This document shows positions 1 to 62,191 of a stretch of 64,000 bases of DNA, in pieces; the first letter of the stretch is position 1; each line of letters begins with the position of its first letter. The notes beneath the pieces were generated by a model that saw nothing but the letters and a program-made list of their open reading frames with translations, had not been told where the DNA came from and did no database searches. The DNA is from Crambe crambe (Eukaryota > Porifera > Demospongiae > Poecilosclerida > Crambeidae): NCBI GenBank assembly GCA_963924555.1, contig OZ004583.1:8756582-8820581 (forward strand), in the 5' to 3' direction. A program made the translations under genes and the position numbers.

Positions 1-3000
1 TGCCTAATACCTATGATGCTGTTTGGATGCTCCTCTTCAAGTGAGTTCACCATCACCACACTGTATCCACAACCGTACTGTAAGAAGATGATGATTCCTC
101 TCATCCTTGTCCTTCTCCCTGCTTTCTTCTCCTCTTCTCCCCTCATTCTTCTTCTCCCTCTCATCTTTTCCCCTCCCACTGCTTCTCATCCCCCTCATCT
201 TCTCCCTCCTCCTCTCTCAGACACCTTTCAGACCTGTGTGTTGACGAGAGGGCAGCAGTGAGGAAGAGTGCCAGCCAGACCCTATTCTCCACCATCTCTG
301 CCCATGGCACACTCCTCCAGAAGGAGACATGGAAGGACGTCCTGTGGAAGGTCAGTTGGTCATGTGACATGCATGTGATCTCCATACACATTGATTCTAT
401 AATAATAGGCTTCTACATATTATTTTAAGTTTATAATTTGCTAATAATGTAGCATTTCTATGTATGTATGTTCAGTTCAGTAGTTACTACTGTTTTTAAC
501 GATATCCAATGGCAGCTGCATTTCTGCCATATGCAGCTGGTACAGTGAGGTAGACCCTGTGATTAGGAGGCATTGGGAACCACATGTTCTCAGAGTTAGT
601 GTTAGTAGCAAGTTGATCCCAAGAGTATAACATGAGGTATTTTCATATTTGTTGGTTCCAATCTGAGTGAAGATTTTAAGGTTCTGTTGAGATCCTCGAC
701 TACTATGCCCTACTGCAGCACCCACAAAGATTAGCACTTCACTAATATTTGAAGACCATTAAAATTCATAATAGTGTGTAGCCCATTGATAGGATTGGCA
801 ACTGCCACCTGTACATACACATTGCTGCTATGACATCACTCAATGGATTTCTGATGACAGAGTTCATAGTGCAACTACCTGTGTCTGTGTTTGTGCTGGT
901 AGTCATAACAATATGCCAGCTCACATATATTCTGGCATTCTAGATCTGATGACAATTATGAAAATATTACTGTAATGTGTTATTCTTGGTGTCTTGGCAC
1001 CAATTTTTTAAATCAAGAAGCTATAATATGTCTAAGCAGGAGTATTCATGTATTTTCAAAGTACATGTATGTATGTTCAGTTCAGTACTACTATTTTTAA
1101 CGATATCCAATGGCATAGAGATATGCTGCTGCATTGCTGCCATATGCAGTTGGTACAGTGAGGTAGACCCTGCGATTAGGAGGCATTGGGAACCACATGT
1201 TCTCAGAGTTAGTGTTAATAGCAAGTTGATTCCAAGAGTATGACATGAGGTACTTCTCATATTTATTGGTTCCAATCTGAGTGAAGACTGAGGTCACGAT
1301 AAGGTCCATTGTTACTGTGCCCTAGTTTTACACCCACATAGATCAGTACTTCCCTAGCACTGGAAGGAATGATGTTGGGGATGGTGAAGGTCATAGTTGA
1401 AGCATGTCGTAGATTTGATGAACCAATATATCTTCTTGTGACAGACGTCCAGGTGACAGGGTGATTAGATTGCTGAATGGGTGGAGGTGTAGTACCACTA
1501 CACATGGACATTATGGCTGTTCTCAGTTGATTCACCTTTGACAGGAGGTCAGGGCACCCTATTCCAAAGATACACACCCACGGATCATAATAAGCTGGTC
1601 TTATGTATTGTACGTGACTCACTTCCTTCATGGTGTGCTGTAGTCATTGCCGTCATGCAGAGCAGAATGAAAATAGCAATATTCGAAGCAGAGAGAGTCA
1701 CCATTGTTAGTTTTAGGTCACTTTGGGAGGTCAGCAGTAACTTGAGAGAGATGTGTGTTATGAACTGTCAGAAAATCCTCTTTTATAGCAGAAAGCTGGT
1801 GAATTTTAGGTCACTTTGGGAGGTCAGCAGTAACTTGAGAGAGATATGTGTGTTATAAACTGTCAGAAAATCCTCTTTTATAGCAGAAAGCTGGTGAAAA
1901 CAATATAATTCCTCGTGTGTCAATCCATTAAAATTAATAGGGTACATGAAATTCATGTTGTGTGTGTGTTAGAGTGTGTTGACCTTTGTTTGGAGTTCAG
2001 ATCTGTAGCTGCATGCATGTGTGTACATCGGTTGTTTATGATCATGTTTATGATGTCATTGTTCACTGCTCAATCGATCTCTGAGGATCGAGTTCATAGT
2101 GTAACTGTCCAGGTGTATGTATTTGTGCTGGGTCAATGGGCAAACATTTAGAAGCTTAGTATTCAGGCATTCTAGCTTTGTCATTTGGAATAATATGCCA
2201 CTCAACTCAGCATTGCTACAAAAAAAATTCAAGCACAATTCAAGATTGAGACATGGAAGGGTGTCCTTTGGAAGGTCAGTTGGTCATGTGACCTGCATGT
2301 GAGCTTTCTTCTAATTAGTATGTGTATGCATACATATTGATTCTACAAAAATAGTCTACATAATCACTATTTTGAGTGGCTATTTTAGTTGTTATGCATT
2401 TTCAAGTAGTACTTATGTAACATGTTCAGCTCTTTTTAATGATATCCTATAGCAAAGAGACGTGCCCCTGCATTGCTGCCATGTCTAGCTGGGGAAATGT
2501 GTGTTATAAACTGTCAGAAAATGCTCTTTTATAGCAAAAAACATGTTATTCCTCGTGTGTCAGTTGTGAGCACATGAAATTCATGTTGTGTGTAGTTGAC
2601 CTTTGTTTGGAGTTCACCCTGCATGATGTCACCTGTACATGTAGCTGCATGATGTCACCTGTACATGTAGCTGCATGTGTGTACATCACTGATGTTTATG
2701 ACATCACTGTTCACCCCTCAATTGATCTCTGAGGATTGAGTTCATAGTGCAACTGTCCAGGTGTGTGTGTATTTATGCTGGGTAGTCATAACAAATAGGC
2801 AAACATTTAGAAGCTTAGTTACTAGATTCAGGCATATGTCATTTGGAATAATATGCCACTCAGCATTGCTATAAAAAAAAATTCAACCATACAAGTCCAA
2901 TTACAATTCAAGATTGAGACATGGAAGGGTATCCTGTGGAAGGTCAGTTGGTCATGTGACCTGCATGTGAGCTTTCTTTTAAGTAGTATATGAATTATGT

Positions 3001-6000
3001 ATGGGTAGTAGTACTCCTGTACATGGACATTATGGCTGTTCTCAGTTGATTCACCATTTGACATGAGATCAGTGCACCCTATTCCAAAGACACACACACC
3101 CATCACATCATAACTACATAGTCCTATACTTAACTTGACTCACTTTCTTCTTCTTGTGCTGTAGTCATTACTGTCATACAGAGCAGAATGAAAATAGCAA
3201 TATTCGAAGCAGAGAAAGTCACCATTGTTAGTTGCAGGTCGCTTTGGGAGGTCAACTGTAATTTGCGAGAGATATTATTGTTGTTAGTAGTAACTTTATA
3301 GCATTATTTTTAATAACTTCAAACGTTTATAAAGTATTCCATGACATCTACCCTGAGGTCTCACATTGTTTATTTGACATTTCACTGATGATGGCCTCGC
3401 CGAAATATTTGAAGTTATTGCTTGTGAAGTTACTAACTACAATAATGTCGATACCTAGCAACACAAAACTTTTCAGTTGAGAGAGATATGTGTGTTATAA
3501 ACTGTCAGAAGAATTAATGCTAAGCAGGGGACTCAGGAAACTGGTTATTCTCGAATATTAGAGTTTGTAGACATTGCAGAAACAGAGTTCATTGTGCAAG
3601 AGTTAGTAGTTGGAGTTCAGATAGTGATGTTCATGACATCACTGTTCATCCCCCAATAGGACTACAGAGTTCATAGTGCAACTGTCCAGATGGGCAGTCA
3701 TGGGGAAATGAAGTGCAAGTGTGTGTGTTTGCTGGTAGTTGACAAATATGCCAGCTTATAAGTATACATTCTAGATCTGATGACAATACTACTCAGTAAA
3801 GAAATATAGGCACATATAATATTCAGCATTGCTGTAGTGTTATTTTTGGTATCATGGCACCAATTTTTAAAATCACAATCACATGTGTCTAATAGTAGTA
3901 TTTTCAAAGTACTATGTATGTATGTATGTATGTATGTATGTATGTATGTATGTATGTATGTATGTATGTATGTATGTACATCCAGTTCAGTACCACTATT
4001 TTTTAACGATATCCAATGGCATAGAGATTTGCCGATGCATATCTGCCATGTGCAACTGGTACAGTGAGGTAGACCCTACGATTAGGAGGCATTGGAAACC
4101 ACATGTTGTCAGAGTTAGTGTTGAAAGCATATTGAGGAAAAGGATATAACATGAGATATTTCTCATATTTGGTGGTTCCTATCTGAGTGAAGATTTTGAG
4201 ATCGTTGTAAGGTCCATTGATATTAGTGCCACTATAGACACCCATGAAGATTAGCACTTCACTAGCATTTGAAGGAATGATGTTGGGGATGGTAAAGGTC
4301 ATAGTTGAAGCATGTTGTAGATTAGATGAACCAATAGAAGTTTTTGTGACAGATATCCAGTAGATGGGATGATTGTATTGCTGTATGGGTGGAGGTGAAG
4401 TACTGTTGCACATGGACATTATGGCTGTTCTCAGTTGATTCACCTTTGACAGGAGGTCAGAGCACACTATTGCAAAGTTACACAACCATATTATCATAGA
4501 AACATCATAGTCCTACTTAGTAAGTTACTCACTTTCTTCATGGTGTGCTGCAGTCATTGCCGTCATGTGGAGCAGGATGAAAATAGCAATATTTGAGGCA
4601 GAGAAGATCATTATGTTTTTTCGGTTGCTTTGGGAGGTCAGCTGTGACTTAAGAGAGATATGTGTGTTATAAACTATCAGAAATGCTCTTTTATAGGTGA
4701 AAACATGTTATTCCAGTCATGAGCATATTTCTACAACTGGTTAGAGTTCAGGTCTGAGTTGACAACTGCCACCTGTGCATGTGTGTGCATCATTGTCATT
4801 CATGACATCACTCTTCATCCTTCAATAGATCTCTGCCTACAGAGTTCACAGTGTACTTGTGCTGAGTGCTGAGTAGTCATGCCATAATAGGCCAACGTTT
4901 GTATAGGTATATTCTAGCTGTACCATACTAAAGTCTATTTTGCATTCACCACTATAACTGCTTTAACTTTCTCAATTCTTCTAGTTTAATGTATCAACAG
5001 AGAGCACTCTCTCTGCTGGTATTAGAATTTGAAATTAAGGAAGTTTAGCACATTGATCAAGGTGCCAGGTGACTTTAGATGTCCTTTGGAATAATATATA
5101 TACATAAGCCACTCGATATAATACTGTAGTGCAAGTAATAATGAGTTATTTTTGGTGCCTTGACACCAGTTATTTAAATCACTATTCAAAAGAAGTTTAT
5201 CACTGTAAACTTTATGATGCTAGAAAGTGTGTACACATTTATCGGACGTACAGTTCAACAAGGTGTACTGGGTAGTTGTCTCTGTGAGAGAAACCTGCAC
5301 AGACTCTCAACTCGAGGTCATCCATGGTAGAGCTTGGTAGTGTTTTGTGGAACCACGGCGGGTTGTTGACGTTACAATATGTGTCTGGCTCGGCAGTGCA
5401 ACCCACTCCATCCCATAGCGGGTTGTCGGTGTAATACTTTGCAGACGGAAGGGAGTCATTTCTATTACCACTCTCGCAGAAGTAATCCACACCCACAAAG
5501 GATGGGGTATCAGTGCCCCTTTGAGAAGGGCAGCTGAACTGAGTGCTGGCGCGGTTAGCTTGACTGAATGAAGCTGCAAAGCTCCAAACGTGTCTCCGAT
5601 TCCCGGCTACTCATGATCAAGGGCCAAGGGAATGAAGTAGGAATGGTATCTCATACTTGATGATGGGTAAGGGTCACTTCACTAAGTTCACTCTCTTGCA
5701 TGCAGTTATAATACATATTCCAGCTAGATTTTTGGGCCATACTGCTTCGATGCTGCAGTACTTGGTTTTCATAATGAAGCTGCAGTTATAATAGCTATAA
5801 TAATTATTATGTGCTAAATTGTGGTCATCCCTACTTCACATTTTTATTTCGAAGAAATTTTTTGCATTCACTTGTGTATGTATGTATGTATGTATGTATG
5901 TATGTATGTATGTATGTATGTATGTATGTTCAGTCAGTTCAGTACTACTGTTTTCCAATACATATCTGCCATATGCAGCTGGTACAGTGAGGTAGACCCT

Positions 6001-9000
6001 GCAATTAGGAGGCATTGGGAACCACATGTTGTCAGAGTTGATGTTAATAGCAAGTTGATTCCAGGAGAATGACATGAGGTACTTCTCATATCGTGTGGTT
6101 CCAATCTGAGTGAAGACTTTGAGGTCATGATAAGGTTCTTGACCACTGTGCCCTATTTTTATACCCACATAGATCAGTACTTCCCTAGCACTGGAAGGAA
6201 TGATGTTGGGGGATGGTAAAGGTCATAGTTGAAGCATGTCGTAGATTTGATGGAGGGAGGTCCAGATGACAGGGTGATTTGATTGCTGAATGGGCGGAGG
6301 TGTAGTACTACTACACAAGGACATTATGGCTGTTCTCAGTTGATTCACCTTTGACAGGAGGTCAGAGCACCCTATTATACCCACAGATCATAATAAGCTA
6401 GTCTTATGTATTGTCACTTCCTTCATGGTGTGCTGTAGTCATTGCTGTCATGCAGAGCAGAATGAAAATAGCAATATTCAAAGCGGAGAGAGTTACCATC
6501 GTTAGTTTTAGGTCACTTTGGGAGGTCAGCAGTAACTTGAGAGAGATGTGTGTTATAAACTGTCAGAAAATGCTCTTTTATAGCAGAAAACATGTTATTC
6601 CTCATATCCATTAAAATTAATAGGGTACATGAAATTCATGTTGTGTGTAGTTGACCTTTGTTTGGAGTTCACCCTGCATGATGTCACCTGTACATGTAGC
6701 TGCATGATGTCACCTGTACATGTAGCTGCATGTGTGTGCATCACTTGTTTATTGATGTTTATGACATCACTGTTCACCCCTCAATAGATCTCTAAGGATC
6801 GAGTTCATAGTGCAACTGTCCAGGTGTGTGCATTTGTGCTGGGTAGTCATAACAAATGGGCAAACACTCAGAAGCTTAGCCAGGCATTCTAGCTTATGTC
6901 ATTTGGAATAAGCATTGCTATCTATAAAAAAAAATTCAACCACACAAGTCCAATTACAGTTCAAGATTGAGACATGTCCTGTGGAAGGTCGGTTGATCAT
7001 GTGACCTGCATGTGAGCTTTCTTTTAATTAGTATGCCCATTGCTATGGTAACGTCACAATTTACATGGATCTATAAATGTGATACAGTGCATGTAATTGT
7101 AGCCTGGGGTGGTTCCAATCTGAGTGAAGATTATGAGGTCGTTATTGTGTGTACCCACAAGGATCAGTACTTCGCTAGCATTTGAAGGAATGATGTTGGG
7201 GATGGTAAAGGTCAGGGTTGAAGCATGTCGCAGATTCGTTGTGCTAATAGAAGTATTCGGAACAGATATCCAGTAGGTGGGCTGTGTAGTAGTAGTACTC
7301 CTGCGCATAGACATTATGGCTGTTCTCAGTTGATTCACCATTTGACATGAGATCAGTGCACCCTATTGCAAAGATACACACACCCATCACATCATAACTA
7401 CACAGTCCTATACTTAATGTGACTCACTTTCTTCTTCTTGTGCTGTATAGTAGTCATTGCTGTCATGCAGAGCAGAATGAAAATAGCAATATTCAAAGCA
7501 GAGAAAGTCACCATTGTTGGTTGCAGGTCACTTCGGGAGGTTTAGCTGTAATTTGAGAGAGATATTGTTGTTAGTAACTTTATAGCATCATAGATAATAC
7601 AGTACCTCCGGTGGATATGAAACGCCCGCGTATACAGATGATATACGGAGTTTTTGCGGAATAATCACTGTAACGCTTGAGGACAGTGTTCTAACTCCAA
7701 CTGCAGCGCGGTTCTGTCCATTTTATCACTTACCTTTTCACTCCATGCAACTTTAGTGCGCGGAATTTACTGATATAATAGTGTAGTAAGTGAATGTTAC
7801 TTAGTTTGTAGCTTAAAACTACACCAAAACATTAAGGAAGATGGTATTATTTAGTTACTTGGTTAAAATAATACTTTTGTTAGATTATAATAGCACTTAT
7901 TGTCATGCATTGAAAAAAAAAAAGAGCAACCTGGAAATCCTTACCTTGTGGGAGACTGGGAGAAAGTAAAAACAAATGTCATGGTGGTTAAACATAGCAA
8001 CTCAAGACTCAATAATGGCTGATATTTTTGTTAGATTTTCGTCCACATGATAATGCTGGGATAGCAATTTTTTACATCATTATACAGTTAAAGGGTCAGT
8101 GCACCAGGAGAAAGTGTCATTTTCAGGGACTAGTCACTCCTTCACACTTTGTGGCACTATCAAGACATACATGCTTTCATTATGTAGCTAATTGATAAAT
8201 TGCCTATGGCATAATTCAGTTTTTGGATAATAAAAATGGCAACAAACAACAGCAACATTGCTGCAACAAATGTATCATTCAACCATTGGCATGCATAGGT
8301 ATGATAGCTAATGTAGCTAGCTGGCTAGTTGTATAAATCTTGTGATGCTAGCTATAATTGATACTGTAGTAAATGGGAACCATCCTACCAAATTTCACAA
8401 AAAACGAAGAAAAAAAAAGAAGGAGCCAGATCAAGGTTTGATCAACATGTGAGAGTGAGGGTAGCCTATGTTTGTTTCCAGATTGAATACATTTGTTCAG
8501 CTCTGAAAGGATGCTTGCAATGCTGAAGGTACAAGAACGGTCCAAATGCTGTATGCAATCCAGGAGCTCTCCTATGTTCTTTTATCTTTTGGAGAATGCT
8601 TAATTGCAGCGAGCGAGCGAAGCGAGTGAGCTGACTCTCAGGTCATGACTCATTGAAATTTTAAATATATATATCTATGTCTACACTCCAAAATGCCCCA
8701 GGCGTTCGTGCAATAGTAGCGCCCCTGCGCTGCATTTATGCGCATGCTCCAGTTGTAATTGCTTGATTGATTTCTACATCGCTTTGTTTATAGCATGGTG
8801 GATAGTAGGGCTAGGCTTATCTAAGTGGATTGTAGGCACTAGACATATCTAAGTGCTTTGTGGTAAGTACTTAGCTTTCTATGCATGCAACTGCCTGCCA
8901 CTTAGCTACATAACACAACAGCAAAGCACAAATGAACTATCAGCTCAACATTTCTACAGCCTTTTGGGCAGCAGGCACGAGGCTTATCTAAGCGGCTTGT

Positions 9001-12000
9001 AGGCACTAGGCTTATCTAAGTGCTTTGAGGTAAGCATGTATGCAGCTGCCTGCCACCACTTACATGACTCTTAGCAATATCAAGCACTGAAGCCTATCAG
9101 CTACTTTAATTGCTCACTATCAAATGCTGCACATTGCTACAGATACTCAACAGCAATCGTTGAAGAATGTACTTGCTTGCTCGCTCGCTGTCAACTGAAT
9201 GTTGAACATTGCCCTAGTTAATTCTGCTTTTAATATATTAGAAACCATGGAGAGAAAAAGATCAGAACATGGCTTTCTCACTGTTTGTAGCTGCTGCTTA
9301 CAGACTGTGTCTGTATAATGATAATAAATAAAATTGTTACACTAAACTTACATTTCTTTGCATCCATTTTCTTCTATTTCCTCTTCAAATAAACCTCCTA
9401 CACTCTCTCAGTATCACTACTTGACTCCATGAGCCTGTCTCCAGCGCTAGTGGCTATGTATTCCGCCATAGAAACCCGTAATTTACTATAGTATCCGTGT
9501 GCGTAGTCCGTGACCGCGCGTTACAGTGATTGAATTGCCACAATGATCATACAGAGTATTTATATTATCTATGATAGCATTAATTTTAAACGTTTATGAT
9601 AGCTTAGTCAGACATACTAGCTTCAAGCCATAACATGTTAAAGCATTCCATGACATCTACCCTTGAGGTCTCACATCGTTTATTTTGACATTTCATGTGT
9701 TTCCATGGACTACTGACATTATGACTTATAAACCACACCGCGACCCTTTGATCTCGCCCACGCATGGGATATATATACATAATATATAATATTATAATGA
9801 GTTATTTTTGGTGTCATGGCACCAATTTTTAAAATCACACAATCATATCATTACATGTGTCTTTACTATGTATGTATGTATGTACATCCAGTTCAGTACT
9901 ACTATTTTTTAACGATATCCAATGGCATAGAGATTTGCCAATGCATATCCACCATGTGCAACTGATACAGTGAGGTAGACCCTACGATTAGGAGGCATTG
10001 GGAACCACATGTTGTCAGAGTTGGTATTAACAGCACTTTGACCCCAAGGATATAACATGAGATATTTCTCATATTTGGTGGTTCCTATCTGAGTGAAGAT
10101 TTTGAGATCGTTGTATGGTCCATTGATATTCCTACCACTATAGACACCCATGAAGATCAGCACTTCACTTGCATTGGAAGGAATGATGTTGGGGATAGTG
10201 AAGGTCATAGTTGAAGCATGTTGTAGATTCGATGAACCAATAGAAGTTTTTGTGACAGATGTCCAGTAGACGGGATGATTGTATTGCTGGATGGGTGGGG
10301 GTGAAGTACTGTTGCACATGGACATTATGGCTGTTCTCAGTTGATTCACCTTTGACAGGAGGTCAGAGCACACTATTGCAAAGTTACACAACCATAGTAT
10401 CATAGAAACATCATAGTCCTACTTAGTAAGTTACTCACTTTCTTCATGGTGTGCTGCAGTCATTGCCGTCATGTGGAGCAGGATGAAAATAGCGATATTT
10501 GAGGCAGAGAAAGTCATTATTGTTTTTTCGGTTGCTTTGGGAGGTCAGCTGTGACTTAAGAGAGATATGTGTGTTATAAACTATCAGAAATGCTCTTTTA
10601 TAGGTGAAAACATGTTATTCCAGTCATGAGCATATTTCTACAAATGGTTAGAGTTCGGGTCTGAGTCGACGACTGCCACCTGTGCATGTGTGTGCATCAT
10701 TGTCGTTCATGACATCACTCTTCACCCCTCAATAGATCTCTGCCTACAGAGTTCACAGTGTATTTGTGCTTTGTGCTGAGTAGTCATGCCATAATAGGCC
10801 AACGTTGTAGGTATATTCTAGCTGTACCATACTGCTACGTCCTCTGGAGCGGGACTCTCCCACTACCCTCCTCCATCTCAAGCAGTTGTGCAAGTGGTGT
10901 TTGATAGCTGTACGATCATAGCTTATCTTGTTAACTTGCCACTCCCCCTCATCACACCATTGTCGCAGCAGAGACACAATCAAAGCAAACCGAAAGAATA
11001 ATACGCTACCAGAACGAGATGACATGTCTGCCGAGATGCCGAGTCTCGATCTCGTAAAGTCAATTCGCATTCACCTGGCACCATGATTGTCCACTATAAC
11101 TGCTTTAACTTTCTCAATTCTTCTAGTTTAATGTATCAACAGAGAGCTGATTATCCACTCTCTCTGCTGGTATTAGAATTTGAAATTAAGGAAGTTTAGC
11201 ACATTGATCAAGGTGCCAGGTGACTTTAGATGTCCTTTGGAATAATATATATACATAAGCCACTCAATATAATACTGTAGTGCAAGTAATAATGAGTTAT
11301 TTTTGGTGCCTTGACACCAATTATTTAAATCACTATTCAAAAGAAATTTATCACTGTAAACTTTATGATGCTAGAAAGTGTGTACACATTTACTGTTTTC
11401 TCTTATCGGACGTACAGTTCAACAAGGTGTACTGGGTAGTTGTCTCTGTGAGAGAAACCTGCACAGACTCTCAACTCGAGGTCATCCATGGTAGAGCTTG
11501 GTAGTGTTTTGTGGAACCACGGCGGGTTGTTGACGTTACAATATGTGTCTGGCTCAGCAGTGCAACCCACTCCATCCCATAGCGGGTTGTCGGTGTAATA
11601 CTTTGCGGACGGAAGGGAGTCATTTCTATTACCACTCTCGCAGAAGTAATCCACACCCACAAAGGATGGGGTATTAGTGCCCCTTTGAGAAGGGCAGCTG
11701 AACTGAGTGCTGGCGCGGTTAGCTTGACTGAATGAAGCTGCAAAGCTCCAAACGTGTCTCCGATTCCCGGCTGCTCCGTGAGTCAAGCTCACTCCGTCCA
11801 TGTAGCGTGCATCGATGCTTGCTGTTTGGTGGCTGGTGATGAATGCATATGCATAGCCATATTGATAGCCTATCACTCGTCCACAGACTTGGTTGTACTG
11901 CAGTCCACCAATGCTGAAAGTGGTGGAGGAACAGCCGCTAGATGACGTGTATAATCCACACATTCGTATCGGACTGGCGATGTACTTCAGTCCCATGGGA

Positions 12001-15000
12001 CAGTTTTGATTTGGATTCGACATGTTGACAAAGGCCACTCTACTCCAACCTGCTCCACCACACATTGCTTCCTGGGGCTCTGTCAATGATTCCTGTTCCT
12101 CTGTTGATGGTGCCTGAGGTTCAGTCAATTGCTCAGTAGAATCTGATTCTTGTGGTCCCTGCTCAGTGGATGGTTCAGGTAATAGCTCAGTTGATGATCC
12201 CTGTGGCTCAGTCGATGATCCCTGGTGCTCAGTTGATAGTTCAGTAGATGACTCAGTTGAAGGCTCGGTTGGTTCCTCTTGCGGGAGGTAGTTTCTCCTC
12301 ACTTCTTCGGTAATCTCTCTGCGAACACGTTCACTTTCTTGCCTTGTAGGACATGCCCCTTGCTCTGCTTGCACTGTGAAGGCACGTATTCGAGCTCTCT
12401 CCACCACTGGGACGGGGGCAGACCTCAGTGAAGAGGAAAAAGGCAGCACTTGAATCAGTAGTACTAAAGTGAAAAGCAACAACCAAATATTTTTTCCTTC
12501 CATCATAAACTGGTTTTTGAAGTTGAAGATTTTTAGTGCATGCTTATGAACTATCTTCCTAGTTCCTTTTATACTGGAGGGTGCATGGCTACATATATAT
12601 TTTAGAGGAGCTGTGTTTTTTATGTGTGGTCTGAAACTTGAGAAGGAAATATCAGCAATCTTACATGCTTGATTCCACAGGAATTGGTACACTTGCTATT
12701 GACTCTATAGAAGTTGACTGATTTGTGTCATTCTATAGCATTCCTTTTGATGTTATGTTATAATTAATTCCTTTTTTGATGTGAACAACACGATCTTCAT
12801 AACATTCATTAATTTACAAATGTATATACATGATAGTGTGTGAGTAATGCACATAAATTTGGCTAAAGTATGTTGTTGTTGTCGCTGTTATTGTTGTTGT
12901 TAATCATTTTATGTAACTGCAGATTCTGTTTCCCCTGCTGGTGGGTGTTGGTCAGGCCACAGGATCAGCCAGTACCAGCAGTTTCCAGACCTCCATCCTC
13001 ATCCACCACTCACGCAACACTGCCCAGAAGCAATGGGCAGAGACTCAGGTGAGCAAAACCCTTTAATCAACAGAATGATGATGTCACCCCTTAAACCATA
13101 ATATTCTCTTTAGTAAAAGAGCTTTTCCTAGTGAGCATCGGAAATATCAACCTATTTTTGAACGATATGGTTTCTCTCTGTGACTACCTTGAGTAAACTG
13201 CTCTTTCTCTTAGAGCTAACCAAAGATTTTGTAGCACTCTCAGTGGCTGCTTGATGCTATGATACTAGCTTCTCCCATTTTTTAACTTCAGGTGCTGACA
13301 CTCACTGGCAGTGCTCGGCTGTTCCAGACACGCTGGACCGTCCTGACCTGCCTGGAGAGATTTGAGGAGGCATGGAGTACGTTCCTGGACATCATCAAGG
13401 AATGCTCTTGTAGCAGCACCACAGAGGTCAGAGGTCAATTGGGTGTGATTTGGGTTTTAAGTATAAATGCATGTACTAATAAAGTCAAGGGGTAGGAAAA
13501 GTGTAAATTGTATGCATATATACGGACAATATGCAAGGTTAAGTATACATGTACTAGTCTATAGATGATTGAATTGTATCGTCACGATACTGAAAGTATG
13601 ATATATAACTGTTGCTATATTTAGAACAAATGAGTGACTAGCAATCGTGCCATAGGTGATTGTATTGTATCAGTTAAGGTTTGTCACGATACTAAAGTAA
13701 CTGTTGCTATATTTAGAACGAATGAGTGACTATAGCAATTGCGCCACAGGTGATTGTATATTTATCAGATAAGGTCTGTCACGATACTGAAAGTAATGAT
13801 GTTGCTATATGAGTGTGTGCCATGCGCATAGGTGATTGTATTGTATCAGTTAAGGTCTGTCATGACGCCTGTATAAATGGTTGCTATATTTAGAGTTTTA
13901 AACTTCCGTTTCACATTTTCCTATAAAGGATACGTGACCAATAATACTTTGCGCAACTTCTAGTTTCAGTGTATCGGTACACAATAATGGCTCCTTCTGC
14001 ATCGTCCACTATTATCTTCGTGACTCTACTCTGCATGACTGCAGCAAATGGAATACCAGAGACTGAGAGTAAGTAGTAACAACTAGTGTATGCTATTTGC
14101 AATACTTTTTTATGACTCGATATGTAGAATGTTCTGATATGAAAAAATTGGAATCTGGGTGCAGTGATGCATCTCGAACTACTGAATCCATTCTCCCACT
14201 TGAGAACACTGCAGCAATATGTCCACCTGGATGTCGCTGTCCTGCCAACTGGACAGCCGTTACTCTTACTCACCTTGGCACATCTGATCTCATGGAAGTT
14301 AATACACTCGCATTCGACATCCCTAGCATCATCCCATCCAGTGCTGGAGAATTCCTAGTCTTTTGTAGCATTTACATTGGTAACACGGGCCAACAGGGAC
14401 CCTATCAGAATCTTGCAATTTTCACAGAGATAAATAATGCTCGATATTATAAATACCTTGCGGTCTATCCTTGGAATGCAGATGATTATAGCTTCGCTTC
14501 TGATAACATGTGGTTCCCAATGCCTACAAATCGCAAAGTTTTTATCACTGTGACAGCTACATGTGGCAGGCATGCAAATTTTAACTGTTTTGTCACTGGA
14601 TATCGTTAACTAACAATAATTATAGTGATTTTCCTATAATGGAAAGAGACTTATTCTATTACTATTGACTTGTGTGTGTGTGATCAATTGTGTACCTATT
14701 TTAATGCCCACCTATTATCATTGAGTTGTTACCTAGCCATGCCACATGCACCTCTTTCATATGTAGTGATTCTTCCTATTATGATATTAGAGATGATGTT
14801 TCATTATAAGGTTTAGTGTTATTCACTGCAAGACCAGCAGGAATAACTCTCCTATATTTAGAACAATGCCACTATGCCCTTTACGAATGATTCTTCTAAT
14901 TATGGTGAACTGATAGTATGCTTGCAATGTCACTGTTAGTACAATGACAATATACCAATGCACACTTCTTCTCATGAAGAGACAGCAGATCATATAGTAG

Positions 15001-30000: not shown

Positions 30001-33000
30001 TATGATGAAATTTCTTGGGTCATTTAGCTATGGTGACTATAGCCCCGTTTACACGGGGGGGGGGGGGGGGGGGGGGGGGTTCTAACCCGGATTTGCTTCA
30101 CGTGCGAACGGTACCAGGTAGCCAAACCCACATCAATTAGGTGGATTGGAATCCAGATTAAATCTCAACCTGGGTTGGGCACACGTGTAAACACAGCTTA
30201 TGGACTTCACACTTTATTGGAATGTGGAGTAGTAAATCACCTCACTATATACTGCATCTACTACAACTTGTGCAGGAAATCATTCTTTTTAGAGTGCATT
30301 CTATAACTGTCATATAAAATATAGTCTCCACTCAAAGAGAGTTTCTGAGAGCTGGCAAACGGCTTTCTTTACCAGCTAACTATCTTGCAACATAAACCAA
30401 TATGGCTTTTTCTACATCAACCGTTATAGTCTCTTTTTTTTTGCTCTGCATGACTATAATGATTGCTTGTTTGTTTGTGCATAATATATGTAGAGTGCTC
30501 TGATATTATGTCAAAGATGGAAGGTTTGAAAGCAGCTATAGAATCCAACACCTCCACCCATTCAGCAATACTATCATCCTGTCAACTGGACTAATAATGA
30601 TAATAGGCAATCACATTAATTGCATAGTTTCTCATGTGCACTTCTATAGTTTCACATGTGCCAGGGTGTCTGTGGCATGTACGAGATTAACATTTCTAGT
30701 TAAACAAATTACTAGTGTTACTACAATTACTAGCTAGTTTCTCATATGCACTTCTATAGTTTCACATGTGCCAGGACAAGACTAGCACTTAATTCTAGTT
30801 AAACAATTACTAGTGTTACTACAATTACTAGCTAGTTTCTCATATGCACTTTCGCATGTACCATGACTCTTACTATGCATACTGAGCAATCTAAATGGAA
30901 TACAACTTCTTTCACTGTGTATCTGCCTATAAAAGACGCATGCTGGATAACTACGGATAGCAGTCTTTTCTCATCTCTGTACCAAAGGCATCAGTAATGG
31001 CTTTTTCTGTATCAACAATTCTACTCTTCTCTGTGCTCTGCCTGACATCAATGTCTGCAGTACAGAGCAAAGAAGGTGAGGTAGTGTATGTGTAGAGAAG
31101 GCCCTAAAATCTGGCTGGGCTGTATTGAAATTAATATCATATGCGCTTTAATTAATGTTATATATCCCTTTAGGTCTCGCGGCTACAGTCAATTGGTTGA
31201 AAGCAATCATTGACTCCATGTGCAGTGCTAATGCTGCTTCTCCATCTGTGCAGTTCAGTTCAAACTGGACATCTGTCGCAATGACTTCCATTGGGTCCTC
31301 TAACCTCAGGCATGTTACAACCTCAACCTTCACTATTCCTAGTATCATCCCCTCCAGTGCTAAGGAAGTGTTGATCTTTGTGACTGTTGCTTGTGGTACC
31401 TCCGATGGAGGTGCTGTTCGGTACCTTAAAGTCTTCACTCGGATAGGATCTGCTCGATATGAAAAGTACATCACATCATTTCCTTATCATCAAAATGCTT
31501 GGAACACTAACTCTGAGAACATGTGGTTCCCAATGCCTCCTAATCGCAGGATCTACCTCACTGTACCAGCTAAACATAGTGGAAATGCAGCCATATATTT
31601 TGCCGCCATTGGATATCGTTAGCAAACATCTTTTTAGTATGATTATGTAGTGATGACTTTTGTAGTGAGAAGTAGATTATGAGTGTGTGCATCATTATGT
31701 CTTTTGTCATTGGGTAAAACTGCATTCAACAGCATCGGCACATAACTATATGGCACAAGTAAAAGACATATGACCAGTACACTTTTCAACATGAATCAGC
31801 ACTTCACTAGCATTAGAAGGATTTATGTTAGGGATTAGATTAGAGTCTGGAGACTGAAATGACATCTCTCAGACTCTAATCTAATCCCTAGCATTATTCC
31901 TTCTAATGCTAGTGAAGTGCTGATTCATGTTGCTTTTCATGATACTAGTAATATACCCATTCAAGACCTCAAAGTCTTCATTCAGATAGGAAGCACTCGA
32001 TATGAAAATTACATCTTGATAAGGGCCTATAGCTTTGATAATATATGGTTCCCAATGCCTCCTAATTGCAGGGTCTATACCTCACTACATCAACAGCCAA
32101 TCAACGAGGTAGAGAAGCTAAGCTTTATGCCATTGGGTATTGTTAAAATGACCACTTGTTAATGACTACAGCATAATACTGTATAGTGGCTTAGTTGTGT
32201 AAAATAGGGATGGCTAGTGTGTATGGTTCAAAAAAGTTCAGCAACAAGAGAGTAAACTTCAGTCAAGTAACTCCTTATCCATCCAATATCACCAAACTAC
32301 GAGCTAACTATTCCTACTTCACTCCCATGACAGGCCAAGATGATAAAGGGAGTAAAGTAGGAATAGTTAGCTCATAGTTTGGTAATATTGGATGGGTAAG
32401 GAGTTATTTGACTGAAGTTTTGAGATTTCTATAGTGAGTGTGGGAGGTGGTAGGGAATATTAAATTGAGTTAATAATGAGGACCACATGACAAAGGGGTG
32501 GGGCCTTACCAGCAAGGCGCATGCACTGGATCAGTCAACAGCTGCCTCGTGCTCCAACTACCTACAAAGCCTCTTCATTAAGAGCAGACATCTGTCATTT
32601 CTTTCCCACCCACCCATCCACAAACTCTCCATTGTTGGGCTTGCCCAATGATATGATCGGTGTTGGGCCGGGCTTGGGTTTCACAACCCTAAGCTCCTAT
32701 TCCCCCTGTTAGCACCAAGTAGCACCAATTAGCACTTTGGCTACAGGGACGTTAACTGATGGAAAAGTTGTGTATTCATAAGAGTGTTGGCATCACTAAG
32801 TCCACCACTTGCTACGATGCAATTAGCTACAGGACTTCTAATTAGGGACGATACCACTTCAAACTTATTGGAATGATTATATTGACTGGAATAAATGACA
32901 TCACTATACTGCATACATACTGCAACTTGTGTGGGACATTGTAATTCTTGTTAGAGTGCATTCTATGACATATAAAATATAGTTCTTATAAAAAGTGAGT

Positions 33001-36000
33001 TTCTGAGAATTGGCAAACAGCTTTCTTCACCAGCAAGCTATCTTCAAGTTTAAACCAATATGGCCTTTTCTACATCAAAAATCGTTATCGTCTTTTTTTT
33101 GCTCTGCATGACTATAATGACTGCAGCACAAAGCCAACAAGAAAGTGAGTTATGAAACTACCCCTACAGCATGTTTATTTGTATTGCAATGCATATAGTG
33201 CTCTGATATTATGTCGAAGATGAACGGAAATACAAAATATTTTCATCTTTAAGGACTGTTAAATACCTGCAATGGAGAGAAAACAACCTAAATAATCACA
33301 GGTAGTAGTTTACAAGTGTTTGACTCACCAACAGATACTTGCTTGATACAGTTGGCCCAACAGTACCCCCGTCCCGTCATCTCTCATCTAATAACCTGTG
33401 GCCATTATAAATAACTTGAAGGGAATCACTTCACAGCCCTCTACATATGCTCTACATATGAACTAGATCTCAAATACTTGGCTGGGGACTGTCAAATTAC
33501 TCTCAAGCCTGTTTAAAAGAGTGACCATTGGAAGGAGAAGGGGTCGGGACTGAGACATGGATGGCTCAAGTTGTAAATAAGGTCTATTATTGTAAATATA
33601 GGACTGCCAGTGCTTACTACTAAAGCATAGAACACTTTATGGCCACCTATGGGCCTTCTAACTCTTATTACAGAGAGGAATAGAGTAGAGTCCTAGAAAT
33701 TAGTCCTTCTACAAGTAAGTACATGGGATTTAATTGATTTTTGCTGACCTCGTAGCGCATCCAGAAAAGTGAGAAGCTTCCTAGAAATCTTGTTACAGCT
33801 CCCAAAGGGCTCCAACTCAGTATCCTTCAATAAGCTTGATAAACTTCTGATTTTGAGATATTTAGCGATTTAGTAGTGTGAATAGAGCGCCATATTTCAG
33901 GCTTTACTGGGCCGATTTCCTTGCTTCTTCTTGGAAAAATCAAAGAACAAGCCTATGTCAACATGGATGTGGGCTCTATTTTGTTTAATTAGCCACGAGG
34001 CAGTTGCTATAATGCATTTTTGTGACATCATTAGGGTTGCTAGGCCCGTTGCTAGACGCTATTTTCTCAATTTATAATATTTTCGTGACGTCATCAAATG
34101 TCCACGAGTGCAATAGATTGAAACACCCGTGATGAGTGGAATTTTAAAATTGTGGTTGAGTAGAAAATATGATATGTAGAATATTTAGTATGATTTGCTT
34201 TCATTTGTGTGTTGTGGAGGTTGGTATGAAATGTGCTTCATGCTCTTTGTCATCTGTTGATCATGTGATCTTAGACTCTTTGCAGTCTTATTATAGGCCA
34301 TAGTCTATACATGTGTAGCAAAACTTCCCTGCCTCTATTCAAACCAGGGCTTCCCTTGGATTGGTAAAGGGTTGCCAAGATGAAGAACTAGTCTGTGTTA
34401 TTAGACTCTATAGTACAAGCTGTTCATAGCTAGATTTCTTTTGAATGAGTGCTCTGTTGCCAAAGGAGATGAAAACGTATGCTAATCCAGGATGGAATAG
34501 CTTGAGCATACTAACCAATGAATATGTCGCTACGCTTTGCCTTTCCTGTATGTGACTGGCTTGATGCATTCCACAGACATGATTATGTATACTCAAGTTG
34601 ATTGGAGAGTTTTATTTGATTGATAACGTGCCAGTGGCGTGCAATCTCTGTTCCTATTAAATTAGTCCATTGTTTGGACATTGATTCTCCATTCGAAAAA
34701 CATCTCCGAGGATTAACTGCATAAAGCACTACAGTAATGGCTTCCTCTCTATCAACTACTGCTACTCTATTTCTGCTCTGCATGACTGCAATGGTCATTG
34801 CACATGATGAAGAATCTGAAAGTGAGTGAAATAATACAATCTATTCCACTGGAGTAATGATAATTATTTCAACAGGTCTTGTAGCTACAGTGAAAAGATT
34901 GAAAGCCACTATAGACTCCATGTGCAATGTTGCTACTGCAGCACCTTCCGCTGTTGCACCTCATTCTGCACTTCCAGCTATGCAGCAATGCAACTGTGCA
35001 GGCATGGCCAAATGGATATCTGTCAATAAGACTACTATCGGCTCATCGACTCTCCGGCAGGCAGCAACTCTCACTTTTATCATCCCTAGCATCATTCCTT
35101 ACAATGCTAGTGAAGTGCTGATTTATTTTGTTTTTCAAGGCACTGGTGGATCAGTGTCCCTTCAGGACCTCAAGCTCTTCACTCAGATAGGAAACACTCG
35201 ATACGAAAGATACCTCAGGATAAAGAATTATATCAGTGTTAACTCTGATGATATGTGGTTCCCAATGCCTCCTAATCGCAGGGTTTACCTCACTACATCA
35301 TTGGCTTGTACAGGCAATTTAGAAGCAAAGCTTTATGCCATTGGGTATCGTTAAAATGACTACTGATTGACACTAATATACTTATAGTTATTTGTAGTTG
35401 CTTGTATTATAGTTGTAGAAAAGACTGTCAGTAGATTTTATTGTTTTTGAGATTTCATATGGCATATCATGTTGAGTGTGGGAGGTGGTGGGGAGTGATA
35501 GCAGTGGTGACACACTATGGAGTGTATACCTGATGGCAAAGTTGTTATAGGAGTGTATTCATAATCATATTAAGACTGTGGGCATAGCTATAGGTCACTA
35601 AGTCCAGACTTTCTTCCCCCACTTGAAATAACCAAGCGGGACAATAGTCTGGATTAAGTTTCCTGGTTCATTTAGTAGTTAAAATAATTATTTAGGATGA
35701 TACCATGTACTTGGAATGATGATGATACTATGATATCATGTCACTATACTGCATGTATACTGCAACTTGTGTGGGACATCGTAAAGTTAAAATTATTTTT
35801 AGAGTTCATTCTATAACTGACATATGTCTCCACTCTTCTTATAAAAAGAGAGTTTCTGAGAACTATGGCAAACAGCTTTCTTCACCAGCAAGCTCTCTTC
35901 AAGTTTCAAGCAATATAAACCAATATGGCTTTTTCTGCATCAAAAATCATTGTCTTTTTTTTTGCTCTGCATGACTATAATGACTGCAGCACAAAGCCAA

Positions 36001-39000
36001 CAAGAAAGTGAGTTATGAAACTACCCCTACAGCATGTTTATTTGTATTGCAATGCATAGAGTGCTCTGATATTATGTCGAAGATGAACGGTTTGAAAGCA
36101 GCGTTAGAATCCATGTGTGGAAATTCCATCCCAACTTCAACACCTCCACCCATTCAGCAATACTATCATCCCGTCAACTGGACCTCTGTCACAAAAACAT
36201 CTATTGGCTCATCGAATCTGCGACATGCTTCAACTATGACTTTCACCATCCCCAACATCATTCCTTCAAGTGCTAGGGAAGTACTGATCTTTGTGGGTAT
36301 ACACAGTGGCACCAGTGACCGTGGACCTAATCATGACCTCAAAGTCTTCACTCAGATTGGAACCAATAGATATGAGAAGTACCTCACATTATATTCTTGG
36401 ACTCAAGATGCTTGGAACACTAACTCTGACAACATGTGGTTCCCAATGCCTCCTAATCGCAGGGTTTACCTCACTGTACCAGCTATACATGGCAGAAATG
36501 CAGGGGCACGTCTCTTTGCCATTGGATATCGTTAGCAAATATCTTTTCAGATGGAGAACACTATTAGTGTATAGTTTTAGTATGTAGTGATGACTTATGA
36601 TTGTAGTGAGAAGTAGATTGTATCTTTTGCTTATGCTGTTAAATGTGCTAATGCCAAGCATTGTGGGGCAGGTTGTGGTCATCATGGAATAAACTGCAAT
36701 GATCAGTTTACCCAAGAGGAATAAACTGAAATAATAAGTTTACCCAATCAATGATCATCACAGAAATAAACTATTTACCCAATGGTCATCAGTGACCAGT
36801 GCACTTTCCTGTATCCCATAGCTATGGAGACTGAAATGACATCTCTCAGATTCTAATTCCTAACATTATTCCTGATTCAGGCTAAGATATTTTTCATAGT
36901 CCTAATTAGAAGTCCTGTAGCTAATTGCATCGTAGCAAGTGGCGGAAGAAAGTCTGGACTTAGGATGCCAATACTCTTATGAATACACAACTTTTTCCAT
37001 CAGATATGTACATATACTCCCTACCACCTCCAACACTCGCTATAAAACTAGTACAACTAAGCCACTATACATTATGCTGTAGTCATTAACAAGTGGTCAT
37101 TTTTAACAATACCCAATAGCATAACTTTGCTTCTCCACCCTCTTGATGTAGTGAGGTAGACCCTGCAATTAGGAGGCAATGGGAACCACATATAAACATT
37201 TGGACTATAGGCTGTAATTTTCATGTAGAGTGCTACCTATCTGTATGAGAACTTTGAGGTCTTGAGCAGGTATTTTACAAGTACCTTGAAAAGCAATATG
37301 AAATCTGAAGGAAGCATGATAAGGAAATTCATAAGATACACAAAACCACAGCATGTTTCTTTCTTTACTACTCAAAATAATTATTATGAAATATGGCCGT
37401 GCCCTTGAGTGTTTTACACTGTTTCCTACAAAAAATACACTGTTTCCTTCTAGTTTCTATTGGAATCACAAGAGAAATCTCTTATTGCTTCAAACTTATT
37501 GGAACAAAACCACAGCATGTTTCCTTCTTTACTACTCAAAATAATTATTATGAAATATGGCGTGCCCTTGAGTGTTTTACACTGTTTCCTACAAAAAATA
37601 CACTGTTTCCTTCTAGTTTCTATTGGAATCACAAGAGGAATCTCTTATCGCTTCAAACTTATTGGAATGATTGTTGACTGGAATAAATGACGTCACTATA
37701 CTGCATACATACTGCAACTTGTGTGGGACATCGTAAATCATAATTCTTTTTAGAGTGCATTCTATAACTGACATATAAAATAATAGTTTCCGTTCTTCTT
37801 ATAAAAGTGAGTTTCTGAGAACTGGCAAACAGGTTTCTTCACCAACAAGCTCTCTTCAAGTTTCAAGCAATATGGCTTATCGTCATTTTTTCTCTCTGCA
37901 TGACTATAATGACTGCAGCACAAAGCCAACAAGAAAGTGAGTTATGAAACTACCCCTACAGCATGTTTATTTGTATTTCAATGCATAGAGTGCTCTGATG
38001 TTATGTCAAAGATGACGGGTTTGAAAGCAGCATTAAAATCCACGTGTGGAAATTCCATCCCAATTTCAACTCAGCGATATGATCACCCTGTCGGCTGGAC
38101 CTCTGTCACAAAACATCATATTGGCACATCGAATTTGCAACATGCTTCAACTATGACCTTCACCATCCCCCACATCATTCCTTCAAGTGCTAGGGAAGTA
38201 CTGATCTTTGTGGGTGCAAGCAGTGGTCATAGTAACCGTGGACCTTATAATGACCTCAAAGTCTTCACTCAGATTGGAACCACTAAATATGAGAAGTACC
38301 TCACGTTATACTCTTGGACTCAAGATGCTTGGAACACTAACTCTGAGAATATGTGGTTCCCAATGCCTCCTAATCGCAGGGTCTACCTCACTGTACCAGC
38401 TGCATATATGGAAATGTAGGGGCACGTCTCTTTGCCATTGGATATCGTTAGCAAATGTCTTTTCAGATGGAGAACACTATTAGTTTTAGTATGTAGTGAT
38501 AACTTATGATTGTAGTGAGAAGTAGATCATGAGTGTGTGCATCATAATATCATCTTGTAGTTTATGCCGATAATGCCAAGCATTGTGGGGCAGGTTGTGA
38601 TCATCACTGAATGACAAGTTTACCCAATGGTCATCACATGAATAAACTATTTACCCAATGGTCATCACAGGAATAAACTTCAGTGATATATTTACTCACA
38701 GGAATAAACTGCAATGATATGTCCAATGATTACCACAGACTAAACAATGGATCAATAAAATGGAAATCCAGACACGTGACCAGTACACTTCCTATGTTCC
38801 ATGGCTATGGAGACTAAAAATATATCTAATCATGGCACTTTCAAGGGTTCCATTAAATGCCTTAGCAACAGTTAATAATCTATGTCCACAGGGTAGATAC
38901 TTGTGAAAATATGGCCACCTTACTCGTGAAATAACTCACCATATTCCACTCTGACTCATGTAAATGTATTATATAGAGGTCAAGGTGTGACTATTCATGA

Positions 39001-42000
39001 TGGACTAACCTTACAGTAATGCATCTCTATGATCATTAACAGGTATCTGTGGCAGCTATGAAGAGTTTCCAGATTATCGTTACCCCTCAATCATTCTCAT
39101 CTTCCTCCATTCCCCCTCAGACTTCTCTCCATGCCCCACCCAATGTTTCCCCCACCAAGGACCCTTCACTGGGAAAGAGGAAGAGTCCCTCCCCTTCTCC
39201 TATATCTGTCCCCCATGAACAGGTGTGCTATGTTTGAGACCCATGTCAATCTGAGGGGTAGTTATCCCCCCAAAGCTAGTCTTGAGCAGTTAGGGGTTTT
39301 CCCTCAAACCTTAGGACATGGTATGTCAGTCTTGAGGGGTTAATTAACAGGGTTCCCCCCTCCCGAATCTCCAACCAGTTGGTGAGCTATGTGAGAGGCA
39401 CATGTCAGTCTTAAGGGGTTTTTGATTACTAGGATTCTCCCCAAAGCCCTCATTCTATACAATTGCCTTTGATGTGGTCAGTGGAAGCACAATATTATAC
39501 TGAGTATCTCTACATAGGAGGTTTTGCAGGATTTGCCAGGACACCTCTCCCTGTGGATAAAAGCATGGGACACGTGGGTCAGCATTGGCGAGCGGTTAGT
39601 GGTGCAGAGAGTACCCAGTCCCAAAGAGATAAGCACTCTCCTTCAGTCACACAAGTCTGAGAGTTTGAACGCCATGTGTAGTGTTGTACCCTCACAGACA
39701 CTGCTGGTCAGCTTCCTGGAAGTACTGCTTAAGGTACATATGCTGCTACTACTATGTCTATGTATGTGTGTTGATTCATCCTTTCTCCCTTCTCCCCTCT
39801 TGCTTCTCCCTTCTTGTTCCTTTTCCTACCCCCTCCCCTACCCCCTCCCCCTCTCTCCCCTCCCTATCTCCCTCCCTACCTTCCCCTCCCTCTCACCCTC
39901 CCTACCCCCTCCCCTCCCTTCCCCCTCCTTCCTTCCATATTAGGTATATCCTCACGTGCAACACGACTTCACTGAGTCTCACTACCAGACAATGTCCAAG
40001 ATCCTGAAAGCAGCCCTGCTCATGGTAGTGTCTAAGGACGTCTCTCCCTTCCTAGTGCCTTCCTTCACTGAGCACTCTCTGTCCAGTGTCCAGAGACTCA
40101 TCCTTAAGTCCCTGGGCTGTGTGGTGACCACAGATAGCGTTTTGGGATTGCAAGACCAGGAAAACAACCAATCAGATGAGCCAGATGAGGTATGGAGCAT
40201 TACACTGTTTTCTCTGTGATTCACCATCACTGTATTTTCTTCAAGGGCAAACTTGTTCATACCTTATTTGGTAAGAAGAAATCGGACTTGATCGATCCAA
40301 TGCTAATGATGAAATTGAGAGTGGAGGTGGGGTCTCCCCTCATTATCAACGTGCTGTCCGATCTCTTATCCAACACGGCCTACACTCATCAGCTGCCAGA
40401 GATAGCCCAGTTGGTTCAGGGGATTCCCCCTACGAAACTCCCCATAATGTCGGTGAACTTTGTATCGTTTGGATTGGCCAGCCAGGCCTTGGCTGTCAAG
40501 TTATACAGGTCGTGCCTAAGGGCGAACCCCAGGGTCCAGTTGCCTCTCAACACTCACGAAAATTTCCTTAAGGTCAGTCAGTCCAGAGCAAAGTCACTAT
40601 TGATAATGATCAGTCATTTTCCAATGGTATCATCCTACTGAATGTCCAGTTAAATTTTGGCTGCAAGGAAAGTGCTGATAGTGCATTTTGGACAGATTGT
40701 GACTACATTTTGGTATTGTGTTTCCATCGTCACATGCACAGCAGTCAATAATGTCCAGCGTTAAGACGTGGTTGCTCTTGCCACTGGCAGACACTACAAA
40801 CCAATCATTTTAATGATTGTTTCATAGACATTGGGCGGTGGCAGGAAATATCGAAATTCTCGGAAATACTGTGGGATCACTTTTAGCCTCTTAGTAACCA
40901 TTCTAAGGTGTGGAGGATTCCTTGATTGGGTGGAGGTTAATAGTATTTATCACTTTTAACCCAATCAAGTGAAGATTTCAATAAGGAAGTAAAGTTCATT
41001 AGTTTTATTGATGTGTGGGGGTGTTACACCCACTTCTTTGACGGTTTCATTAGTAATTTTGATATTTATAGGTGCTACACCCACCTCTTCAGCTCCGCCA
41101 TCATTGCAGTCACTCTTCTGTTTGGTCTCAGAGTGTGCAATCTCTATTGCTGGTCTTGGAAGTGGCTCTCCCATGCATACTGGAGGAAGGTAAGTGTGAC
41201 GAAAGAATACTTCCAGGTCAGGAGGTGTGACAGATTAATGTACCAAAACAATAACACGAATTTGGCTCTTGAATTAGAGTGGTGCATCAATTAGAAAGAA
41301 TATGGTAGTCACAAATGCTAAGTCCTAACAAAACAATTGTTTTTGAGCATAGAACATGTACATTAGAACTTCAATATGACCTCAAGCTATGAACATAGGC
41401 ACTCAATATGCTTATATGGGAATGGTATCATTTGGCAGCCTCCAAGGGACTATGGTTATAATCCCCCCCCCCCCCCCCCCCCCCCCCCCTTGAGTAAACT
41501 GTAATAGGAACAATGATAAACTGATCTATAATCCCTTGGGAGCCGCAGCCCCTCCTCAGGAGATTAATGAGTATCATCAATTTGTTTGGGTTAAGATATT
41601 GAAGGAGAGTGCATTAGCAAGTGTTGTTTATCCATCTGTTGGGAATAGTGTGTAGTGGTGGTGGGTGGTTGTAACCTGTGTGGTCATTTAATCTCATAAT
41701 GATTTCCACTTGTAGACGATGTTGCTACCCTGTCGTTTTGGCTGGAGCTAGGTGCCATCTTTGAGGACTTCCTCTTCAGTGAAATGTAATTTAGCGCATG
41801 TATAATATATCCATTAATTGGTTCCTGTGTGACCTAGTGCCTCCTGCAGTAATGTCTAGTACAATTTCCAAGTATTTACAGTTGTGCACATGATCAGTGA
41901 TTTTTGACAGACTGACACATCACACACAAAGAGTGTGTTCTCTTTCTTTCTTTCTTTCTTTCTAGCCCTGAAGGAATCACTTTGTCCTCTGACAAAATGA

Positions 42001-62003: not shown

Positions 62004-62191
62004 TATTTTTGTCAGTGTAGTTTCTAAATGCTAGTAGTTTCTAAATGCTAGTAGCTTCCTTTATTATTATTTTTTATTATGTTATGTGTATGATTCGATT
62101 TGCGCATGCGTATTATATTGCACCTTGCAGCTGGCCAGCCACGCCTATTTTTGCATTCCTGCACAACTGTAAGTATCCAAGCAAACGCAAA

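Follow-up and report, generated by a model that had tools for sequence, protein, structure and literature searches.

A secreted protein family with a head homologous to a bacterial fibre tip, nested in two giant introns of MON2 in the sponge Crambe crambe

The 64,000-nucleotide stretch of Crambe crambe DNA analysed here (the window; positions 8,756,582 to 8,820,581 of contig OZ004583.1, a 9.5-Mb contig in a 143-Mb genome) carries an array of small genes inside two giant introns of the housekeeping gene MON2. The intact copies encode a signal peptide, a linker that in most of them is rich in Pro/Thr, and a beta-sandwich head of 118 residues, and this head is homologous to the tip of the Bdellovibrio fibre Bd2133, a member of the mosaic adhesive trimer (MAT) superfamily (PDB 8ok3, 8ond; PMC10769870). 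We propose, with a probability of roughly 0.55, that the products of the nested genes are small secreted proteins serving recognition, that these are trimeric, and that each bears a copy-specific pocket at its apex whose ligand is most likely a microbial glycan. Both the homology of the head and the continuation of the family upstream of the window go beyond a first-pass annotation of this DNA.

In phmmer searches the head matched 8ok3_A with E-values of 9.7e-17 and 1.3e-11 over the domain. The structure model of the head, a monomer of exon 2 from copy c27, shares the beta-sandwich fold of the Bd2133 tip, which was the only close solved match. The trimer strand of Bd2133 (G989-W999) corresponds to sites 112-122 of the sponge head, in which it ends in NSDNMW. 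In addition, a 4-3-4-3 (heptad) hydrophobic pattern ending in a cysteine precedes the linker in 10 of the 13 intact copies and in 24 of the 67 relatives with enough sequence; shuffled sequences gave 0.19 on average and at most 2, although the real sequences are related and hence not independent. The Bd2133 pocket is formed by Y985, N956 and N1020; as a set, these three residues map to c27 sites 80, 109 and 142. Judged from sequence only, the predicted pocket retains an aromatic residue at site 109 in 92 of 109 relatives and Asn at site 142 in 62 of 109, and site 80 is variable.

Assignment of the whole protein to the MAT fibre class was rejected, as the 12 spliced proteins are 175–190 amino acids long and have neither a long beta-helix fibre nor a conserved N-terminal surface domain. 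Unlike the Bd2133 fibre, the sponge protein is secreted, has a short helix, leaves no room for a beta-helix fibre or the MAT N-terminal domain, and exists as many paralogues in an intron array. C1q-like and similar soluble trimeric-head lectins of animals are secreted proteins with a stalk and a trimer-forming beta-sandwich head, and the sponge family resembles them, by analogy only, in its stalk, head and secretion.

The variation among copies is concentrated around the predicted pocket. Variation was expressed in bits per site, and significance was taken from 117 circular shifts, using either 17 copies or 109 outside relatives. Among the 17 copies, sites within five residues of the pocket sites averaged 1.95 bits against 0.71 for the rest, a contrast matched by 1 of 117 shifts (2 of 117 for windows of three residues and 3 of 117 for two). 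In the outside relatives, 1 of 117 shifts matched at five residues and 1 of 117 at three. Sites 117-134, which include the second half of the trimer strand, averaged 0.26 bits. In four non-overlapping pairs, picked after a first look at the data, the ratio of nonsynonymous to synonymous change (pN/pS) was 1.09 within five residues of the pocket and 0.19 elsewhere (Fisher p 3.9e-5), and in 22 of the 27 listed pairs the framework showed purifying selection with a nonsynonymous-to-synonymous rate ratio (w) of 0.02-0.29. As far as such comparisons go, purifying selection acts on the framework and the pocket has been either released or diversified, with positive selection there suggested, not proved. 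Variation concentrated at presumed binding sites over a conserved frame, a mark of diversified innate recognition families, is thus seen here within the limits described below, and the recognition reading gains support from fold and pocket. The first-pass annotation had suggested a recognition or defence array; the conserved framework, the variable pocket loops and the copies that another assembly has but that are missing or broken here are evidence of recognition-like evolution, and a role in defence is putative.

Several observations weigh against this interpretation. The heptad pattern is missing in 3 of the 13 intact copies, and the first half of the trimer strand (sites 112-116) is strongly variable, the second half (117-122) alone being conserved. 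For the three pocket sites taken alone, 4 of 117 shifts matched the value among the copies, and among the relatives 16 of 117 did. A three-residue window lowers the pN/pS contrast to 0.80 versus 0.35 (p 0.02), and the earlier pooled sets (0.74 versus 0.17 and 0.63 versus 0.17) used loops defined from the variation itself. The pair c21/c26 has one nonsynonymous loop change and w 0.10, with no loop excess, and framework w reaches 0.54-0.85 in the other five of the 27 pairs, namely four with c17 and the pair of upstream copies u1/u2. Synonymous change is also raised near the pocket (0.17-0.24 versus 0.11-0.12), so that part of the contrast may come from local mutation or from gene conversion in the framework. 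The ligand is a further point: the available text of the Bd2133 paper describes the crystal pocket as occupied by a neighbouring peptide, mentions no natural ligand, and reports another tip, Bd2439, as the sole glycan-array binder (PMC10769870). A peptide ligand is therefore as open as a glycan.

The best of the alternatives, which we nevertheless consider unlikely, is that the genes encode secreted structural or adhesive proteins of matrix, mucus, glue or feeding filter, whose apex loops are weakly constrained and recognize nothing. Relaxed constraint would give the pN/pS of about 1 or less seen near the pocket, and in Drosophila, as described in the available text of PMC10835880, the Sgs4/ng cluster within an intron of dunce likewise holds secreted genes inside an unrelated gene, there threonine-rich genes together with a glue gene. 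This explanation is countered by the peak of variation at the very three loops that form the Bd2133 pocket, and by the residues retained in most relatives at sites 109 and 142.

The position of the array within MON2 was read from the exons on both sides. The MON2 features are as follows.

221..350, plus strand: MON2 exon 5' of the first giant intron; donor GT at 351-352, 5' end (AG 219-220) by eye only
351..12922, plus strand: first giant intron of MON2 (12,572 bases), with minus-strand family copies
12923..13048, plus strand: MON2 exon ILFPLL...WAETQ; junction reading and Mon2_C match
13292..13426, plus strand: MON2 exon VLTLTG...SSTTE; junction reading and Mon2_C match
13427..39042, plus strand: second giant intron of MON2 (25,616 bases), with all family copies but one fragment on the plus strand
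39043..39222, plus strand: MON2 exon; junction reading

The three junctions (350/12923, 13048/13292 and 13426/39043) are all GT-AG and phase 0, and the spliced frame is open. A genome search with the Pfam profile Mon2_C, in which nine candidates were scored, gave seven matches (six above the cut-off) on one contig in collinear profile order: 222-359, 12911-13054, 13289-13432, 39944-40120, 42837-42959 and 44025-44168 in the window, and one 231-353 bases to its left. No second MON2 locus was found among the nine candidates. The earlier statements that the flanking exons join in phase and that the array truly lies within MON2 introns are thereby upheld.

Family heads were located by tblastn (E<=1e-3) with seven family queries, which gave 27 separate head (exon 2) places from 499 to 38413 within both giant introns. 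Thirteen of these are complete open genes, of which 12 consist of a signal-peptide exon, a GT-AG intron of 49-98 bases and exon 2, and one (15080-15613) is intronless. The other 14 are truncated or frame-shifted or, as far as the script used for the signal-exon search could tell, have no readable signal exon; at 24234-24692 and 36074-36535, exon 2 is open and the defect lies in exon 1 only. Two orphan signal-peptide exons bring the total to 13 intact and 16 broken pieces of 29, the same tally as that of the first-pass annotation (about 30 copies, about 13 intact and at least 16 broken), and the signal-peptide exons of the intact copies agree with its description of a secreted family. All seven first-intron heads are on the minus strand and the second-intron heads on the plus strand, bar that at 37108-37366. 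The intact copies, with two exons unless stated otherwise, are as follows.

4003..4611, minus strand: c4, 180 amino acids
9909..10517, minus strand: c9, 180 amino acids
13987..14609, plus strand: c14, 187 amino acids, with a PDB match
15080..15613, plus strand: c15, intronless
16055..16670, plus strand: c16, 185 amino acids
17402..18042, plus strand: c17, 190 amino acids
19729..20351, plus strand: c19, 186 amino acids
21082..21705, plus strand: c21, 189 amino acids
26563..27181, plus strand: c26, 189 amino acids
27780..28392, plus strand: c27, 186 amino acids; exon 2 is the protein modelled
29113..29736, plus strand: c29, 189 amino acids
30997..31622, plus strand: c31, 175 amino acids
34737..35354, plus strand: c34, 187 amino acids

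The broken pieces were found by tblastn, by the signal-exon search (SE) or by both, as marked.

499..755, minus strand: broken copy, head split over two frames (tblastn)
1100..1701, minus strand: broken copy, head split over two frames; open relative in another assembly (tblastn, SE)
2442..2492, minus strand: head fragment (tblastn)
3136..3222, minus strand: orphan signal-peptide exon (SE)
5959..6496, minus strand: broken copy with signal exon (tblastn, SE)
7075..7511, minus strand: broken copy with signal exon (tblastn, SE)
22251..22645, plus strand: broken copy, signal exon open (tblastn, SE)
23352..23503, plus strand: head fragment, two frames (tblastn)
24234..24692, plus strand: c24, exon 2 open, no clear signal exon found (tblastn, SE)
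25499..25949, plus strand: truncated copy, signal exon open (tblastn, SE)
30402..30595, plus strand: broken copy with signal exon (tblastn, SE)
31863..32140, plus strand: head fragment, two frames (tblastn)
33060..33143, plus strand: orphan signal-peptide exon (SE)
35925..36535, plus strand: c36, exon 2 open, signal exon in two frames (tblastn, SE)
37108..37366, minus strand: head fragment, two frames (tblastn)
37876..38413, plus strand: c38, altered near the C-terminus, partial signal exon (tblastn, SE)

The family is not confined to the window. Genome searches, which score the best candidates only and may miss remote members elsewhere, gave 30 matches with one copy as the query, all on the same contig between 8.681 and 8.795 Mb, and 26 matches within the same span with a distant relative as the query. 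Four matches lie upstream of the window: open frames 58 and 46 kb to its left and fragments 22 and 75 kb to its left. The family thus extends beyond position 351, the start given earlier for the array, and continues upstream among duplicated pieces of MON2. MON2 5' exons are present four times in that region (C5:8670001-8756581, L039-L047), matching residues 106-221 of a human MON2 probe; one of the four sets presumably belongs to the MON2 gene itself. Upstream segmental duplications reach 94.5% identity over 4.7 kb. Within the first intron, the following duplicated pieces and repeat adjoin family members.

2240..2305, plus strand: duplicated 3' end of MON2 exon with splice donor (sequence match)
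2908..2973, plus strand: duplicated 3' end of MON2 exon with splice donor (sequence match)
6976..7018, plus strand: duplicated 3' end of MON2 exon, short (sequence match)
3913..3978, no strand: (TATG)n microsatellite lying 25 bases off the 3' end of c4

Weaker duplicates of the exon end adjoin both upstream copies, u1 and u2, that by u2 comprising 27 bases at E 0.39 and a second piece at E 5e-6. The original MON2 exon end and all five of its recurrences are followed, about 57-163 bases on, by a family copy, a fragment or an orphan exon. Because this holds in all six cases, the duplicated unit included the MON2 exon end, and the arrangement of the sequences suggests that the upstream copies derived from the first intron. 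Further (TATG)n arrays (5875-5929 and 9867-9884) lie by two other minus-strand copies, and all three arrays are 25-30 bases from 3' ends. Sea urchin Sp185/333 genes form a tandem recognition family with turnover, which these microsatellites recall, but the protein is unrelated.

A second type of nested gene was found in the first MON2 intron (11403-12695, minus strand; an open frame of 430 amino acids), encoding a signal-like stretch and a spacer rich in Ser/Thr/Glu. Part of the end of this gene is repeated next to c4 (5239-5610, minus strand), within a block that shows 95.8% identity across 686 bases. Searches of Pfam and the PDB gave no family and no convincing relative for this gene, and a structure model of its domain alone was meaningless (predicted local distance difference test, pLDDT, 31). 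An Rfam search of positions 1-40000 found nothing.

A second public assembly contains a MON2 exon open reading frame 98% identical to that here and nine family proteins, all recorded at a contig of 2,571,004 bases; for each of the nine proteins this is its longest recorded contig, and a single shared contig is inferred from the equal size. Four of the nine proteins match copies here at 99% identity or more, and two at 94-95%. Protein P0011 is open and matches two pieces of a broken copy (1100-1631) at 94 and 90%, and the best counterparts of P0004 and P0051 in the 150-kb region reach at most 79% and 69%, respectively. By our own reading, the loops, including site 142, account for four of the seven differences between P0002 and c19. 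Another assembly thus has copies that are missing or broken in this one, in line with the strong turnover proposed earlier.

Such differences in sequence and copy content between two assemblies would also be expected of self markers, that is, of allorecognition or sponge cell-adhesion molecules whose variable heads mark self. We regard this as distinctly improbable. The proteins are small and soluble-looking: no Pfam family was found for the head in eight copies (the few rows returned were far below the cut-off), and no second membrane stretch was seen by eye in the spliced copies. The solved homologue, moreover, is a bacterial surface fibre that its authors, in the available text, assign to prey recognition (PMC10769870).

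We give still less credence to the view that the array consists mostly of functionless, decaying duplicates amplified selfishly or neutrally in introns. The 16 broken pieces of 29 are what decay would leave, u1 and u2 have no heptad helix and a whole-head w of 0.87, and c17 shows the framework w of 0.54-0.85 described above. Purifying selection on the framework in 22 of 27 pairs, the open frames of 13 copies (12 also with splice sites) and the presence of the head in 130 database proteins, own copies included, are contrary to it. An assembly artefact placing the array beside MON2, which the first-pass annotation had named as a possible refutation and in favour of which nothing was found, is very improbable, since the second assembly records the MON2 exon and the family members at contigs of the same size and pieces of MON2 exon ends are duplicated along with family copies.

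Protein searches yielded 41 and then 130 relatives, at least 120 of which were listed, with the source labels ena, jgi, ncbi, lgn or none. A tree of 118 rows divided the 17 copies of the locus into a group of five (100/99) and a looser group of eleven (83/84), with c14 separate. The looser group also takes in four relatives (P0004, P0008, P0011 and P0051), all on the 2,571,004-base contig and apparently from the same species, so that most of the array looks lineage-specific in these sequences. A relative of the MON2 exon, P0122, lies on a 379,499-base contig; no family protein of that contig size is among the at least 120 listed, which says little.

In phage records, tblastn gave no relative for either the sponge head (at E 0.01) or the Bd2133 tip (at E 0.1), viral contigs held no confirmed relative of the sponge family, and a viral structure library gave weak matches only (best E 1.3e-4, TM score 0.39). 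The IMG/VR contig IMGVR_UViG_2576861479_000001 (L074:3001-3366) encodes a tip 98% identical to Bd2133, and this viral-filed contig is therefore probably the Bdellovibrio chromosome or a prophage of it. No confirmed relative of either the sponge head or the Bd2133 tip was found in prokaryote genome contigs, though Bd2133 is bacterial. Among open-licence PMC papers, Bd2133 is named only in its own paper, the main text of which does not contain the words 'sponge' or 'eukaryot' (PMC10769870), and, among the papers listed in the searches, none describes this family in its title or abstract start.

Nested genes are known in sponges, with 2432 in Aphrocallistes vastus and 3358 in Amphimedon according to the available text of PMC10282587. 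The array differs from these and from the Drosophila cluster in that a single family accounts for about 30 copies, spread over two introns of the same gene, and the genome gave no match elsewhere among the best candidates scored. The sponge SRCR genes, as far as described in the available text of PMC10855680, share tandem copies and turnover with the array, but their protein is unrelated and the present family lies within introns of a housekeeping gene.

Other features were observed in the window and the genome. Adjoining the end of MON2 are two open frames of 667 and 377 amino acids (46764-48767 and 44534-45667, both minus strand) with long charged N-terminal parts and with what we take to be Ras-like GTPase motifs. 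At 61197-63883 (plus strand), two open frames arranged in tandem, with a DNA identity of about 79%, look, in our reading, like a secretory glycosyltransferase. Clusters of cathepsin-L/silicatein-like exons occur in the genome, e.g. L069 (C15:865301-866600) and L070-L073. In these five loci the catalytic position is Ser in L069, L071 and L072 and Cys in L070 and L073; it is Cys in L058-L061. One of the three Ser-type loci reads CGSSYAF, the silicatein signature, which suggests that the host is a demosponge.

In the mechanism that we propose for the recognition proteins, each gene would give rise to a secreted trimer whose heads associate along the strand ending in NSDNMW, by analogy with Bd2133, and the helix and its cysteine would lock the trimer. 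At the apex, the three loops would come together to form a pocket that has the aromatic residue at site 109 and frequently Asn at site 142. Since the copies differ at the pocket loops, the surface ligand would change from copy to copy and would most likely be a microbial glycan. The tandem and segmental duplications within the MON2 introns would let the array expand and shrink, with copies coming and going harmlessly for MON2 while splicing holds, and the nested copies would need promoters of their own.

More tentatively, and at less than even odds, the array may represent a previously unrecognised innate recognition system of demosponges, in which soluble, trimeric, apex-diversified mini-fibres, sharing their head fold with the surface fibre of a predatory bacterium, are encoded by a rapidly recombining array in MON2 introns, with repertoires differing by individual or haplotype; transfer of the head between bacteria and sponges may also have occurred. 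Here, the introns of a conserved housekeeping gene are the site where a multigene family renews itself, and the head of this animal family has its only solved counterpart in the fibre of a predatory bacterium. If the proposal is true, sponges, animals with dense microbial communities, would possess a germline repertoire of variable binders, raising the question of whether the same head is used by animals and predatory bacteria to read bacterial surfaces.

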